Shown here: piece by piece, positions 23,904 to 28,054 of the stretch
How positions within the stretch are numbered: the stretch's first letter is position 1
Layout of the letters: each line of letters begins with the position of its first letter
DNA from: Sphingomonadales bacterium
Lineage (GTDB): Bacteria > Pseudomonadota > Alphaproteobacteria > SMXS01
Length of the DNA stretch: 48,586 bases
Direction of reading: 5' to 3'
NCBI GenBank assembly: GCA_022844405.1
Contig: JALHLV010000027.1
Coordinates: forward strand, 1 to 48,586
Position numbers and translations under genes: made by a program
The notes under the pieces: model-generated
Told to the model about the DNA's origin: nothing
The model's input: the letters and a program-made list of their open reading frames with translations, nothing else
The model's database searches: none

Positions 23904-24365
23904 ATGGGTGTGTACGAGAACGCGATCGACATAGACGCGCCAGTGGGTGCGGTGCGTGCGGCGATCGCCGAGCGCGGCGATGAGTGGTGGACGACCAACG
24001 CGTTCATCGATTCAGGGGTAGGCGGAGTTTGCCGGTTTCGGTTTCCCTCGGCGGGTTTTCACGCAGACGTGAGGGTTACAGAAAACGATGATCAAGCGGT
24101 GGAGTGGGTTTGCACGGACGCTTCTCACCCTTCAGACAAGGGTTACCGCGACAGGCGCGAGTGGGTAGGCACGCGCATTCGATTCGAGTTCGATTCCATT
24201 GGGACCACGAGGACGAAGGTGCGGTTTCACCACTTCGGACTGGAGGAATCGCTCTCGCACTACATCGAGCCAAACGATCCGTGGGCGCACTTCCTTCGAA
24301 GCATCAAGCAACTGTGCGAGACGGGCGTCGGCACGCCGCATCAGGGCGGCCCGCCGGAAGGATAG
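23904..24365 (+). CDS. SRPBCC-domain protein (START/AHSA1-like)
   Basis: A 153-residue single-domain protein. YENAIDIDAPVGAVRAAI is the usual first strand and helix of SRPBCC ligand-binding folds, and the closing helix HFLRSIKQLCETG is also typical. The ATG at 23904 is chosen because GGAGG lies six bases before it; the frame is open back to 23808 without a site. GC is clearly lower (roughly 53-58% in lines I looked at) than in core genes. Such proteins bind small hydrophobic molecules; ligand unknown. The 231 bases upstream hold no gene I can support. Confidence 0.8.
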   Translation: MGVYENAIDIDAPVGAVRAAIAERGDEWWTTNAFIDSGVGGVCRFRFPSAGFHADVRVTENDDQAVEWVCTDASHPSDKGYRDRREWVGTRIRFEFDSIGTTRTKVRFHHFGLEESLSHYIEPNDPWAHFLRSIKQLCETGVGTPHQGGPPEG

Positions 24366-24477
24366 GCGTATTGGTGGCATTCATCATGACGAATTGGGCG
24401 CCGTGATCCGCCTCCTCTTGAGCCGATTCGCGCATCGCCGCACCATTCGCGATCAGCGCGGTCAGCCCTGGTGTCGT

Positions 24478-25125
24478 TTAATGGGTCTGGCCCTGGAGTG
24501 GCACGGTCGCTTGCGCTTTGCGCGCCAACACGCACACGACCGGCGCCGGACGCATGGCCAAATATTCGGTGCGCAGCTCGATAAACCCGGCGGCTTCAAG
24601 GGCTGCGGTGAAGGTCTGCGCCATGTCGAGCGCGTCAGCCTTGGTCGGCTTGGGCGTGCGCGGTTGGTAGGTCGTTGCCATCAGCCCGCCCGGCGCTATT
24701 GCCTCGGCCATGGCCCGAAACGCCGCCACCTTGTCCGGGAAAAACTGCGCCACGTTCACGCTGAACGCCTTTGTGAATTCGAGACTCAGCTTCGGCAGGA
24801 TGTCGAGCCCGCCAGTGTGGAGCGCAAGCGTTCCTTCGTTGAGCGCGGTCGCATTGCGCTTCGCGGCCTGCACGATCATCAGCTCGGAATGATCGATTCC
24901 GACCACGCGCCCGCCACCAAGCTTGGCGACGCACGCGGCCAAGGACAGCCCAGGTCCGCAGCCGATTTCGAGCACATGATCGTCGGGCTGTACATCCAGC
25001 AAGCCGACGGTCCATCGATTGCGCTCGACATTGGAGGGACGGTTCGCCATCACCCAGCCGGCGAGAGCACCAACAACACCGTGCGGCTTGCGGAATTGCG
25101 CCACGAGACCCGTGCGAATACTCAT
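24478..25125 (-). CDS. Class I SAM-dependent methyltransferase
   Basis: A 215-residue Rossmann methyltransferase. Motif I VLEIGCGPG is at 51-59, the acidic end of strand 2 at about residue 78 (VVGIDHS), and a later strand is followed by the PGGL turn typical of the fold. Last gene of a four-gene minus-strand operon (hydroxylase, MarR, small membrane protein, methyltransferase); its ATG overlaps the preceding stop. It could modify the product of the hydroxylase, but substrate class (lipid, quinone, small molecule) is not readable. In-frame open sequence continues after its TAA. Confidence 0.9.
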   Translation of the reverse strand: MSIRTGLVAQFRKPHGVVGALAGWVMANRPSNVERNRWTVGLLDVQPDDHVLEIGCGPGLSLAACVAKLGGGRVVGIDHSELMIVQAAKRNATALNEGTLALHTGGLDILPKLSLEFTKAFSVNVAQFFPDKVAAFRAMAEAIAPGGLMATTYQPRTPKPTKADALDMAQTFTAALEAAGFIELRTEYLAMRPAPVVCVLARKAQATVPLQGQTH

Positions 25126-25388
25126 GTGCGATCTCGCGGTCCGGCGCCAGCGCGCCAGGCAAGGCCAAGCATGACGACGATAAGCGTCAGCGCGAGCAGC
25201 GCGGCCACAGCGTCAACAAAGCGCAGGTCCGGCAATCCAGGCATTTGCACCTGGACCTTGGTCCATGTCCAATGCAGCGCAACAGACGCGCCGAGTGTCG
25301 CCAGCGTGATCACGCCGGCGCGGTGAAAACCGGCGCGCCAGCGCCCGCGTTCATGAGGTCCAATCTGGTGCCGGTCAGTCGTCGTCAT
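25122..25388 (-). CDS. Small two-helix membrane protein, unknown function
   Basis: An 88-residue protein with two predicted transmembrane helices at about residues 20-40 and 53-77 after a polar start. The ATG at 25388 has GGAGG nine bases upstream; a longer frame to 25508 would read through the regulator gene. It overlaps the end of the MarR gene by 14 bases and the methyltransferase start by four, so it is well embedded in the operon. I do not recognise the family. Confidence 0.75.
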   Translation of the reverse strand: MTTTDRHQIGPHERGRWRAGFHRAGVITLATLGASVALHWTWTKVQVQMPGLPDLRFVDAVAALLALTLIVVMLGLAWRAGAGPRDRT

Positions 25389-25839
25389 GTTCGCCTCCGT
25401 GGATGCGTGATTGAAGCGTGGTGCGCAGGGAAGCCAGGGTCTCGGCCGTCGTCTTGACGTCTCTCGCGTCGAGCGCCTCGGCCAGCTCGGCGAGCAGGGG
25501 ATTTTCACGCGCCTGAATCTTGCGAAATACCGCCTTGCCTTCGGGCGTCATTGCAACAAGCACCGAGCGATGGTGGATGGGGTTGTCGCGCACGGACACG
25601 AAGCCTAGTTCGTACAACCGATTAACCAACGCCTGGATAGACTGACGCCGGACGGCCTTTTCGCGGGCAATCTGTGGCACCGTCTGTGGGCCGAATTCGC
25701 TGAGATGCTCAAGCACGGCGCGCAGTGAGGCGGTAAGTCCGAGGTCGGCGATCATCTCGTCGCTGACTACGCCTAGGAGCCAAAAGCAGCGGCGGACGCC
25801 AGCGATGACGCGCGCGAGGTCTTTCGCCTTATCCGGCAT
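25375..25839 (-). CDS. MarR-family transcriptional regulator
   Basis: A 154-residue winged-helix repressor: TASLRAVLEHLSEFGPQTVPQIA and RQSIQALVNRLYELGFVSV form the helix-turn-helix, followed by the wing (NPIHHRSVLVAMTPEG). Flanking helices at both ends give the dimer. The ATG at 25839 gives the normal family length; a longer frame would overlap the hydroxylase. It is the second gene of its operon, and two matching palindromes cover the promoter upstream of the first gene, which fits autorepression relieved by a ligand. Confidence 0.92.
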   Translation of the reverse strand: MPDKAKDLARVIAGVRRCFWLLGVVSDEMIADLGLTASLRAVLEHLSEFGPQTVPQIAREKAVRRQSIQALVNRLYELGFVSVRDNPIHHRSVLVAMTPEGKAVFRKIQARENPLLAELAEALDARDVKTTAETLASLRTTLQSRIHGGEHDDD

Positions 25840-26698
25840 GGGCGCCCTGACGTTGCATCGAGCGGCGAAGCGATAGGAACGGCGAAGCCAGCAGCCATAG
25901 GGTGCGCTGCACGCGCTCGTCGCGCACCTCTTCAAGGCCCAATCTCAGTTCAGCCAATTCCACCTGGCTCTTGCGCCGATAGGTTCCAAACAGGCGGTCC
26001 CAAATCGATAGTGTTGCGCCATAATTGCTGTCGGTTTCGGGCTGATCGGCGCTGTGGTGAACGCGGTGCATGTCTGGCGTTACAAACACGAGGCTCAGTC
26101 CTCGGTCGAGCCAGCGCGGCAGGCGCATATTGGCGTGAGCCATGACCACCATGGCCGCGTCGAACACCTCGTAGAGCAGCACCGCCAAAGGCGAAACACC
26201 CAAAATCATGATTCCAGCAATGACGAGTGGCGCAGACGCCAAAGCTTCGAACGGATGGAAGCGCGTCGTCGTACTAACGTCTAGATGAGGATCAAGGTGA
26301 TGCACGCGGTGTATGCGCCATAGCAACGGCACCTTGTGCATCGCCACGTGGATTCCATAGGAAATGAGGCTGCGCGCGAGAATTCCGAGCGCGAAAGCAG
26401 GGAGCGGGTCTAGCCTGAACCAATTCATCATCCCCCAACCGCGCGCTTGGGCGATCTCTGAAGCGCCGAGCAGGGACAGAGGAAAGATCGGGGCGGTGAA
26501 CACCCAGAGTACGGTGAGAAGCGCGTTCGTGCTCCAACGGCGCGGCCTGTGCGCCGGCGCGCGCGATCGGGCTAGGACCAGTTCAGCGAAGCCCATGAGC
26601 GCGAACAGCCCGAGGAAAACGGCATAGGTGAGCGCCTCGGCATTGGCGCGCGCCCAGAGTTCCAAGGCGACATTGTCGAAAGGCAAGGTTTCCACCAT
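25829..26698 (-). CDS. Fatty acid hydroxylase/sterol desaturase family membrane di-iron enzyme
   Basis: A 289-residue integral membrane protein with four to five helices. The histidine clusters of the di-iron centre are present: HVAMH (His117, His121), HRVHH (130-134) plus His138, His188, and HRVHH (211-215). Relatives hydroxylate or desaturate sterols, carotenoids, fatty acids or ether lipids. First gene of the operon with MarR and a methyltransferase; overlaps the MarR gene by 11 bases. The predicted promoter puts transcription only about nine bases before its ATG. Substrate unknown. Confidence 0.9.
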   Translation of the reverse strand: MVETLPFDNVALELWARANAEALTYAVFLGLFALMGFAELVLARSRAPAHRPRRWSTNALLTVLWVFTAPIFPLSLLGASEIAQARGWGMMNWFRLDPLPAFALGILARSLISYGIHVAMHKVPLLWRIHRVHHLDPHLDVSTTTRFHPFEALASAPLVIAGIMILGVSPLAVLLYEVFDAAMVVMAHANMRLPRWLDRGLSLVFVTPDMHRVHHSADQPETDSNYGATLSIWDRLFGTYRRKSQVELAELRLGLEEVRDERVQRTLWLLASPFLSLRRSMQRQGAHAG

Positions 26699-26714
26699 GA
26701 CAGTTATCCTGTCA
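26698..26714. promoter_or_regulatory. Palindromic operator 1 (likely MarR site)
   Basis: TGACAG-TTATC-CTGTCA, a perfect six-base inverted repeat. It covers the start codon, the short leader and the edge of the -10 box of the minus-strand promoter at 26714-26743. A second copy with identical arms lies 28 bases away. Assignment to the MarR protein encoded in the operon is inference. Confidence 0.75.
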
Positions 26715-26743
26715 ATATAGACGAATGACAGTTAGGCTGTCAA
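26714..26743 (-). promoter_or_regulatory. Predicted promoter of the hydroxylase-MarR operon
   Basis: On the minus strand TTGACA (26738-26743) and TATATT (26714-26719) are separated by 18 bases. Both boxes overlap palindromic operators, so a bound repressor would block polymerase. The leader would be only about nine bases. Confidence 0.65.
26726..26742. promoter_or_regulatory. Palindromic operator 2 (likely MarR site)
   Basis: TGACAG-TTAGG-CTGTCA, with the same arms and spacer length as operator 1. It overlaps the -35 box and spacer of the operon promoter. The 28-base centre-to-centre distance is a little under three helical turns. Confidence 0.75.
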
Positions 26744-26887
26744 TTAAAATGTCAACTCATTGAAAAAATTCGTGATCTAGCGGTCGACCTTAGGTCATGT
26801 CCTGAGACGTGGCGTGGCTCGCCGACATGAGGCGTTTTGCGGGCAAACGACTCATAAATTCGCCATGTTGCCGCGCGACTGTCGCGC

Positions 26888-28054
26888 ATGGCTCTGAAGC
26901 AGGTCGTCCGCTGGATGCGCTCCATGACCCGGCCCCTGCCCGGTGCGGCCGGCATCGACGTGGACGCGCTCGCTACGGTTCCTCCCCGGCCCATCGCGGG
27001 CGCGGCGACCGGCGTGTGCGCCGTCGTCGGCGCGTTCTCGCATGGTCCGTCCGGCAAGGCCGCCGCGGTTTCCAGCCTGTTCGAGTTCGAGCGCGATTTC
27101 GGCGGCGCGCAAGGATTGGGCGAAGCGCCTCGAGCCGTTACCCAGTTTTTCCTCAATGGCGGCGGCGAGGCGCTGCTGGTGCGTACCCCGAGCAATTCCC
27201 AGGCGTCGCTGGAGGAAGGCCTCAACGTGCTGGCCGCTTCCCGCGCCGACGGGTTCGACCTGTTGTGCCTGCCCGACGCCGTGCATGTGGCGGACCGTGC
27301 CGTCGCCCTTTACGAGAAGGCGCTCGCCGTCTGCACGCTGCACCGGGCTACGCTGCTAGTGGATCCGCCGCCCGGCCTGGCGGGTGACGCGGACATGGCG
27401 GCGTGGCTGCGGCAGGCGGTGCCGCTGCGGTCGCCGGACGCGGCGCTCTACTATCCGCGGCTCAGGCTCGACAACGGCGCCGAGGCCGGCCCCAGCGGCA
27501 GTGTCGCGGGCATCATCGCGCGCTTCGGCCGCGAGCGGGGCGTGTGGAAGGCGCCGGCCGGGCCGGGCGCCACCATCTCGGGCGCCGGGCTCGACAGGAC
27601 CGTCACCGCTCAGCGGCAGGAGGTGCTCAACCCGCAGGGCATCAACGTGATCCGCGCCATGGGCTCGGCCGGGCCGCTGGTGTGGGGCTCGCGCACCCTT
27701 TCCATCGAGCCCGAATGGCGCCATCTGGCGGTGCGCCGCACAGTGCTGTTCCTCGAACGCTCGCTGCGCCGGGGCCTCGACTGGACGATGCGCGAGCCCA
27801 ATGACGAGCCGCTGTGGGATGGCATGCGCGCCAGCGCCGACGGTTTCCTCGAGGAGCTGTGGCGCGCCGGCGCGTTGATGGGCGCCGCGCCGCGCGACGC
27901 CTGGTTCGTCCAGTGCGGTCGCCAGACGACGACCGACGCCGACATCAGGCAGGGCCAGATCAACATGGTGGTCGGCTTCGCGCTGATCCGGCCCGGCGAG
28001 TTCCTGACCTTCCGGCTGGACCTGAAGGCCGCGCCGCCCGCCATTCATTCCTGA
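26888..28054 (+). CDS. Orphan contractile-tail sheath protein (phage/eCIS/T6SS-like)
   Basis: A 388-residue protein of the phage tail sheath family. The N-terminal region (PIAGAATGVCAVVGAFSHGP, then LFEFERDFGG and QFFLNGGGEALLVR) and the C-terminal polymerisation domain (LSIEPEWRHLAVRRTVLFLE, FLEELWRAGALMGAAPRDAW, then QGQINMVVGFALIRPGEFL) follow the usual order, so it looks full length and near the size of small extracellular injection-system sheaths. No tube, baseplate, spike or AAA gene is nearby: flanking genes are a hydroxylase operon and an SDR. It may be an exapted or relict protein, or belong to a locus elsewhere. Confidence 0.88.
   Translation: MALKQVVRWMRSMTRPLPGAAGIDVDALATVPPRPIAGAATGVCAVVGAFSHGPSGKAAAVSSLFEFERDFGGAQGLGEAPRAVTQFFLNGGGEALLVRTPSNSQASLEEGLNVLAASRADGFDLLCLPDAVHVADRAVALYEKALAVCTLHRATLLVDPPPGLAGDADMAAWLRQAVPLRSPDAALYYPRLRLDNGAEAGPSGSVAGIIARFGRERGVWKAPAGPGATISGAGLDRTVTAQRQEVLNPQGINVIRAMGSAGPLVWGSRTLSIEPEWRHLAVRRTVLFLERSLRRGLDWTMREPNDEPLWDGMRASADGFLEELWRAGALMGAAPRDAWFVQCGRQTTTDADIRQGQINMVVGFALIRPGEFLTFRLDLKAAPPAIHS

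Follow-up and report, generated by a model that had tools for sequence, protein, structure and literature searches.

Paired palindromes over the promoter of a hydroxylase–MarR operon: candidate operators of a proteobacterial MarR subfamily with two half-site spacings

The presence of two identical palindromes, TGACAG-N5-CTGTCA, across the predicted promoter of a four-gene operon in a Sphingomonadales bacterium (GCA_022844405.1, contig JALHLV010000027.1, positions 1 to 48,586; the whole 48,586-nucleotide stretch is referred to here as the window) raises the question of which regulator they serve and what that regulator does there. The second gene of the operon encodes a MarR-family protein, and the first-pass annotation of this DNA had read promoter, palindromes and regulator together as an autoregulated MarR operon. 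Our analysis makes it very probable that the palindromes are operators for this MarR, whose dimers would block the promoter so that the protein represses its own gene and an associated pathway until released by a small molecule. The features concerned are listed in Table 1. Upstream of the operon and divergent from it, at 26888-28054 on the plus strand, lies a gene whose product has phage tail sheath domains (PF17482, 33.4 bits), which is then followed by a short-chain dehydrogenase gene.

Table 1. Genes, candidate operators and predicted promoter of the operon, in window coordinates
Feature	Position	Strand	Basis or remark
Fatty acid hydroxylase/sterol desaturase superfamily gene, 289 aa, first gene	25829..26698	-	PF04116, 110.5 bits
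MarR-family regulator, 154 aa, second gene	25375..25839	-	Pfam and fold matches; predicted binder of both operators
Small protein, 88 aa, third gene	25122..25388	-	Relatives adjoin related MarRs
Class I SAM-dependent methyltransferase, 215 aa, fourth gene	24478..25125	-	PF13649, 48.2 bits
Downstream candidate operator, TGACAG-N5-CTGTCA	26698..26714		Exact match, TGACAGTTATCCTGTCA
Upstream candidate operator, TGACAG-N5-CTGTCA	26726..26742		Exact match, TGACAGTTAGGCTGTCA
Sigma-70-like promoter, TTGACA-18-TATATT	26714..26743	-	Promoter scan, 11/12 matches
Extra half-site, TTGACA	26750..26755	-	Directly repeats the -35 half-site at 12 bp

The computed overlaps between the genes (11 bases between the MarR start and the hydroxylase stop, 14 between the small-protein and MarR genes and 4 between the methyltransferase and small-protein genes) make a single transcript likely. 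That the operon encodes a MarR was borne out: Pfam MarR_2 (PF12802) matched at 32.8 bits against a cut-off of 27 when the protein was scanned as its 186-residue longest frame, with a score of 20.5 bits against PF01047 that lies under that family's own cut-off of 24.6, and an AlphaFold2 monomer model (pLDDT 86.8) aligned with solved MarR-type proteins at Z scores of 15.5-17.6 across the 50 PDB entries listed. This monomer model has the N- and C-terminal dimerisation helices of the MarR fold placed around a winged helix. The closest solved relative by sequence profile is 3bj6 (MarR family SP03579; E 2.9e-22, fold Z 17.1), from which the window MarR differs in being only 24% identical to it over the fold match. 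The description as a MarR operon holds in so far as the regulator is present, but the gene lies second, behind the hydroxylase gene, and not first. The hydroxylase scored 76.4 bits against the OlsE ornithine lipid hydroxylase model (NCBIfam NF052566), below the curated cut-off of 475, and was accordingly assigned to the FA_hydroxylase superfamily only, an OlsE identity being rejected. The small protein has two hydrophobic stretches, as judged by eye, and a Pfam scan of the longer reading frame of its region returned no match; the methyltransferase is a recurrent neighbour of related MarRs.

Both palindromes are exact and start 28 bp apart, as the first-pass annotation had it, and the promoter that it proposed is the sole sigma-70-like site in a scan of 24300-26900 (11 of 12 matches, where shuffles expect 0.6). 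The hexamers lie on the minus strand, TTGACA at 26743-26738 and TATATT at 26719-26714, with a spacer of 18 bp. The TGACA of the -35 hexamer sits within the upstream palindrome, and the downstream palindrome has the last T of the -10 hexamer as its first base and the A of the hydroxylase ATG at 26698 as its last. The extra TTGACA half-site at 26755-26750 gives rise to a third palindrome with one mismatch, starting 12 bp upstream; no such third palindrome was found in the closest relative (L015, 86% identical in MarR) when searched at up to one mismatch.

From this arrangement we infer MarR binding and repression, together with the ligand and the point of transcription start. A MarR dimer on the upstream site would cover the -35 region, one half-site being the -35 hexamer itself, and a dimer on the downstream site would extend from the edge of the -10 hexamer across the start point to the A of the ATG. 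Both would block RNA polymerase at the promoter that serves all four genes, and the MarR would hold down its own expression along with that of the pathway until freed from the DNA by a small molecule, probably one that the hydroxylase/methyltransferase pathway consumes or makes. Counting against an operator reading, 28 bp corresponds to about 2.7 helical turns, which would place the two dimers on different faces of the helix. Some MarR proteins act as activators, and several homologues have a single site only; it is conceivable, then, that the MarR activates at the upstream site or that the two sites set different levels of repression. We consider this very unlikely, however, as both sites overlap core promoter elements and the downstream one lies at or past the expected start, which are positions at which polymerase would be occluded.

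The downstream palindrome might instead act mainly at the RNA level, limiting translation through a hairpin that takes in the start codon, given that TGACAGGATAACTGTCA ends on the ATG and has arms able to pair in a transcript. The expected start point, however, falls inside the palindrome, so that the transcript would lack the 5' arm; the same motif is found away from the start codon in other loci (the start lies 14 bases past the site in L020); and its spacer follows the protein tree described below. An RNA role is therefore exceedingly improbable. The overlap with the start codon, emphasized in the first-pass annotation, is present, but amounts to one base and is shared with other loci: of 68 loci that have a site, 11 show an in-frame ATG within it or at its edge, and in six of these 11 the site's last base is the A of the ATG, as in the window. 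Counted in this way, with in-frame ATGs as candidate starts, overlap with the start codon is a repeated feature but not a general one. The downstream site of L015 contains an in-frame ATG at the presumed position of the transcription start. From the positions of these ATGs, the leaders of the window and L015 operons would be very short or absent if the start point is as assumed; a window leader of about 9 nt would follow only if transcription begins 7 nt past the -10 hexamer.

The design fits that of a textbook MarR system and would, by analogy with marO and other MarR operons, amount to simple repression by occlusion; from its sequence the window on its own reads as an ordinary autoregulated MarR operon. 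In E. coli marO the two MarR sites lie over the promoter, and the operator sequence differs from that of the window. The likeness is that a MarR dimer regulates its own operon via sites over the promoter, whereas the window MarR gene follows a hydroxylase gene, and no MarA-like or AraC activator was found among the genes of the window operon. Two MarR binding sites in marO of marRAB are described in passages of PMC11259696. The relevant passages of a report on the Mycobacterium smegmatis MarR Ms6508 likewise place a palindromic site, ATACCTCTGT-N-ACAGAGGTAT, upstream of its own operon, with a footprint directly 5' of the start codon, and mention no further genomic target found (PMC4143341). 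The position next to the start codon is shared with the window; the site sequence is different, and ABC transporters are described in those passages where the window has a hydroxylase and a methyltransferase (PMC4143341).

A palindrome that serves a single regulator should be considered against its frequency in the genome. At the base composition of the window, exact copies are expected 0.0014 times per window and 0.11 times per genome, and the 3.78-Mb genome contains these two copies and no other exact site; the many unrelated copies that the first-pass annotation had named as telling against its reading are not there. Places with one mismatch number three elsewhere in the genome, on C5, C10 and C23. 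Matches in the window with up to three mismatches were no more frequent than in shuffles (14 observed, 13.9 expected), and enrichment of the motif by such a loose search was rejected; it is the two exact copies side by side that are notable. The relaxed core TGACA-N7-TGTCA occurs at three places in the genome, where a reversed control occurs at one, and the third of these (G000:C1:34014-34030) lies about 20 bp 5' of the first ATG of a second MarR gene (L011, G000:C1:33515-34030), the product of which is 32% identical to the window MarR and belongs to the same subfamily. A GFA-domain gene is directly downstream of L011, a pairing found again in L042. The possession of its own TGACA-N7-TGTCA by this paralogue makes cross-binding plausible, its site differing only in the base pair next to the core (G/C in the window, unpaired there), and the window palindromes could conceivably bind the second MarR, or a TetR- or GntR-type protein, with the MarR gene a mere passenger. 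This is nevertheless highly improbable, since the site goes with genes of this MarR subfamily even where the surrounding genes differ from genome to genome, and the length of its spacer tracks the MarR tree.

The assignment of the sites to the window MarR draws support from its relatives, in which such a palindrome at the promoter of the MarR operon itself, as is typical of the family, is usually kept. A search of genome contigs found five loci encoding relatives (L015-L019). All four genes recur in L015 (86% identical), together with a pair of exact sites at 28 bp; in L016 (65%), which is without the hydroxylase gene, the pair is likewise exact, has a spacing of 27 bp and lies directly 5' of MarR; L017 (45%), also without the hydroxylase gene, has one exact site 5' of MarR. 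Computed co-conservation thus extends to MarR operons of 86, 65 and 45% homologues, headed by exact TGACAG-N5-CTGTCA with or without a hydroxylase gene, and, together with the site at the second MarR gene, it strongly favours the MarR as the putative regulator, as first proposed. The site of L018 (41%) is TGACAATAAACATGTCA, and L019 (31%) has a one-mismatch site only. Among nine further genomes from the same family as the window, the closest protein to the window MarR was 33% identical, and viral contigs that were searched encoded no relative. A search with the double palindrome (the window's 11-bp linker, up to three mismatches) was of no use for finding relatives: it returned only the window's own genome among 385, because homologues vary both arms and linker. 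The G+C content of the operon is 62.5% and that of the window 67.3%, which makes acquisition from outside plausible.

A wider survey used a profile built from seven MarRs, with a match threshold of E 1e-15 or better and up to nine candidates scored per genome, as in a later phylum-wide search; all seven are proteins with TGACA-N7-TGTCA (N7) sites, so distant members with TGACA-N6-TGTCA (N6) sites may have been missed. The profile matched 57 genes in 50 of 385 genomes of the class, and all 57 loci were read by script for palindromes with any of 1,024 five-base arms and spacers of 0-14 (15,360 combinations). The N7 palindrome was the commonest of all, occurring in 27 of the 57 loci against a mean over combinations of 0.38. 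Exact N6 sites were present in 16 loci and both kinds in none; the 14 loci with neither count against the operator reading, several of them having one-mismatch sites only or none. Remote MarR homologues taken as controls had an N6 or N7 site in none of seven cases. In 87 loci of the family, read from 400 bp before to 300 bp after MarR, N6 occurred in 33 and N7 in 26, where base shuffles expect 0.07 and 0.05. Six plasmid records, one per species, taken from the 20 listed of 23 with a match, included an N7 site in Phaeobacter inhibens and N6 sites in Pseudoroseomonas cervicalis and Vibrio fortis, with no exact site in those of Ideonella, Rhizobium etli and Pantoea, although R. etli has a one-mismatch N6. 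In the P. inhibens plasmid (L077, NZ_CP081244.1) the annotated start codon of the related MarR lies inside the N7 site, the gene adjoins an isochorismatase-domain gene, and the defence genes drt3a/drt3b are nearby.

The two spacings are distributed according to the protein tree. A maximum-likelihood tree of 68 rows (the 57 homologues, the seven controls, and L015, L017, L018 and L019; L016, with the same sites as L020, and L006, the same gene as L021, were left out) contains a branch, supported at 100/98, that divides all 30 N7 rows from all 16 N6 rows, which corresponds to one change. On the N7 side 11 rows lack a site; five of them have a one-mismatch N7 near MarR and none a one-mismatch N6. 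On the N6 side, three of four such rows have a one-mismatch N6, and two of the four (L071 and L073) also have a one-mismatch N7. The split was tested later with 26 added loci, 20 from the phylum-wide search and the six plasmid records, of which four have N7, 17 have N6 and five have no site in the counted span; one of the last, L106, has an N6 site 941 bp upstream, beyond that span. All 21 site-bearing additions fell on the predicted side of the corresponding branch (95/96) in a 94-row tree, a figure that represents fewer independent cases because the L082 and L100 proteins are identical and several rows share a genus. N6 may be the ancestral state and not a clade, since the N6 row L069 groups, weakly (79/68), beside the remote controls.

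Comparison of the proteins suggests where the difference in spacing may reside. In the first set the most divergent residues were at positions 37, 39, 41, 44 and 62, and at 16 and 19 where present, with some overlap between the groups; in the added rows N7 and N6 proteins do not overlap at any of these positions, residue 44 being G in 14 and A in three of the 17 N6 proteins and E in all four N7 proteins. R65, Q66 and Q69 of the predicted recognition helix are identical in all added rows. As the predicted recognition helix is fixed while other residues switch, the comparison, read on the monomer model, suggests that dimer geometry, rather than base reading, differs between the N6 and N7 sides. 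Variation in spacer length has precedents outside the MarR family: sections of one report describe conserved half-sites with lineage-dependent spacer length for the GntR-family regulator GlcC (PMC5343134), and sections of another describe LacI-family motifs of even and, rarely, odd lengths (PMC4052901). As with GlcC, the half-sites here are kept while the spacer differs between lineages of one regulator, the difference from what those sections describe being the protein family and the split between 6 and 7 bp along a MarR subfamily branch (PMC5343134). The open-access literature searched yielded no recognised account of such an operator family or of a split between 6 and 7 bp among MarR proteins.

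We consider it somewhat more probable than its converse that these proteins form a large proteobacterial MarR subfamily with the half-site TTGACA, in which a single change of spacing, between 6 and 7 bp, took place on one branch, with R65, Q66 and Q69 fixed and residues of helices 1 and 2 (e.g. 16, 39, 41 and 44) switching, so that spacing is set by dimer geometry and predictable from sequence. If so, the family would be a natural experiment on operator spacing by winged-helix dimers. The 6/7-bp split itself appears to set the reading of bases apart from the spacing of the dimer. For this MarR subfamily, whose operator was not found in the literature searched, sequence allows a regulator to be matched with a candidate operator and target genes. 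The operon also draws attention to a hydroxylase/methyltransferase pathway that is uncharacterised and from which the MarR ligand, as a substrate or product, probably comes.

Sites away from MarR genes are few and in part accompany the same enzymes. TTGACA-N7-TGTCA was counted by hand, with strands merged, in 24 of the 25 further genomes that have an exact N7 locus (all but G307), and occurs at 50 distinct places, 27 at a MarR locus and 23 elsewhere. As the genomes were picked for N7 at MarR, the first figure is partly the result of selection and the low background of 23 is the informative one, although about one place per genome away from MarR does count against the operator reading. The 23 include two pairs with a 26-bp spacing, in two genomes and each on a contig that does not carry the MarR gene: one (L083) heads a methyltransferase gene homologous to that of the operon (E 1.2e-68) and the other (L084) precedes a hydroxylase gene homologous to the operon's (E 4.4e-88), so that sites accompany pathway genes as well as the regulator. 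Two single off-contig sites are of uncertain meaning, one (L085) beside a glutathione synthetase gene, away from the gene start, and one (L086) preceding a PAS/HWE histidine kinase gene. Beside N7 MarR genes stand, among others, genes for the hydroxylase, the small protein and the methyltransferase, and one for an isoprenylcysteine-methyltransferase-like protein that scores below its NCBIfam cut-off.

The geometry of the window's pair recurs in part of the family. Eighteen site pairs are present in 41 N7-side loci, spaced 26, 27 and 28 bp apart in five, four and two cases, 20 bp in four and otherwise in three. A spacing of 26-28 bp corresponds to a promoter spacer of 16-18 bp, the upstream half-site being taken as the -35 hexamer and the hexamer ending on the first T of the downstream site as the -10. 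The linkers of these 11 pairs resemble TATAAT (45 matched bases against 32.8 in shuffles, one of 5000 as high); L022, one of the 11, has one of six matches at the fixed -10 position and CATATT one base upstream. A strict test for TTGACA as -35 with a good -10 hexamer succeeded in 4 of 29 N7 loci (1.8 shuffled) and 1 of 16 N6 loci (1.1 shuffled), and the proposal that the half-site serves as -35 in all members was abandoned, as it fits the pairs spaced 26-28 bp only; the four loci with pairs at 20 bp fall outside this geometry. N6 pairs in L053, L058 and L090 start 19 bp apart and the close N7 pairs 20 bp apart, so that neighbouring sites are separated by 3 bp in either group.
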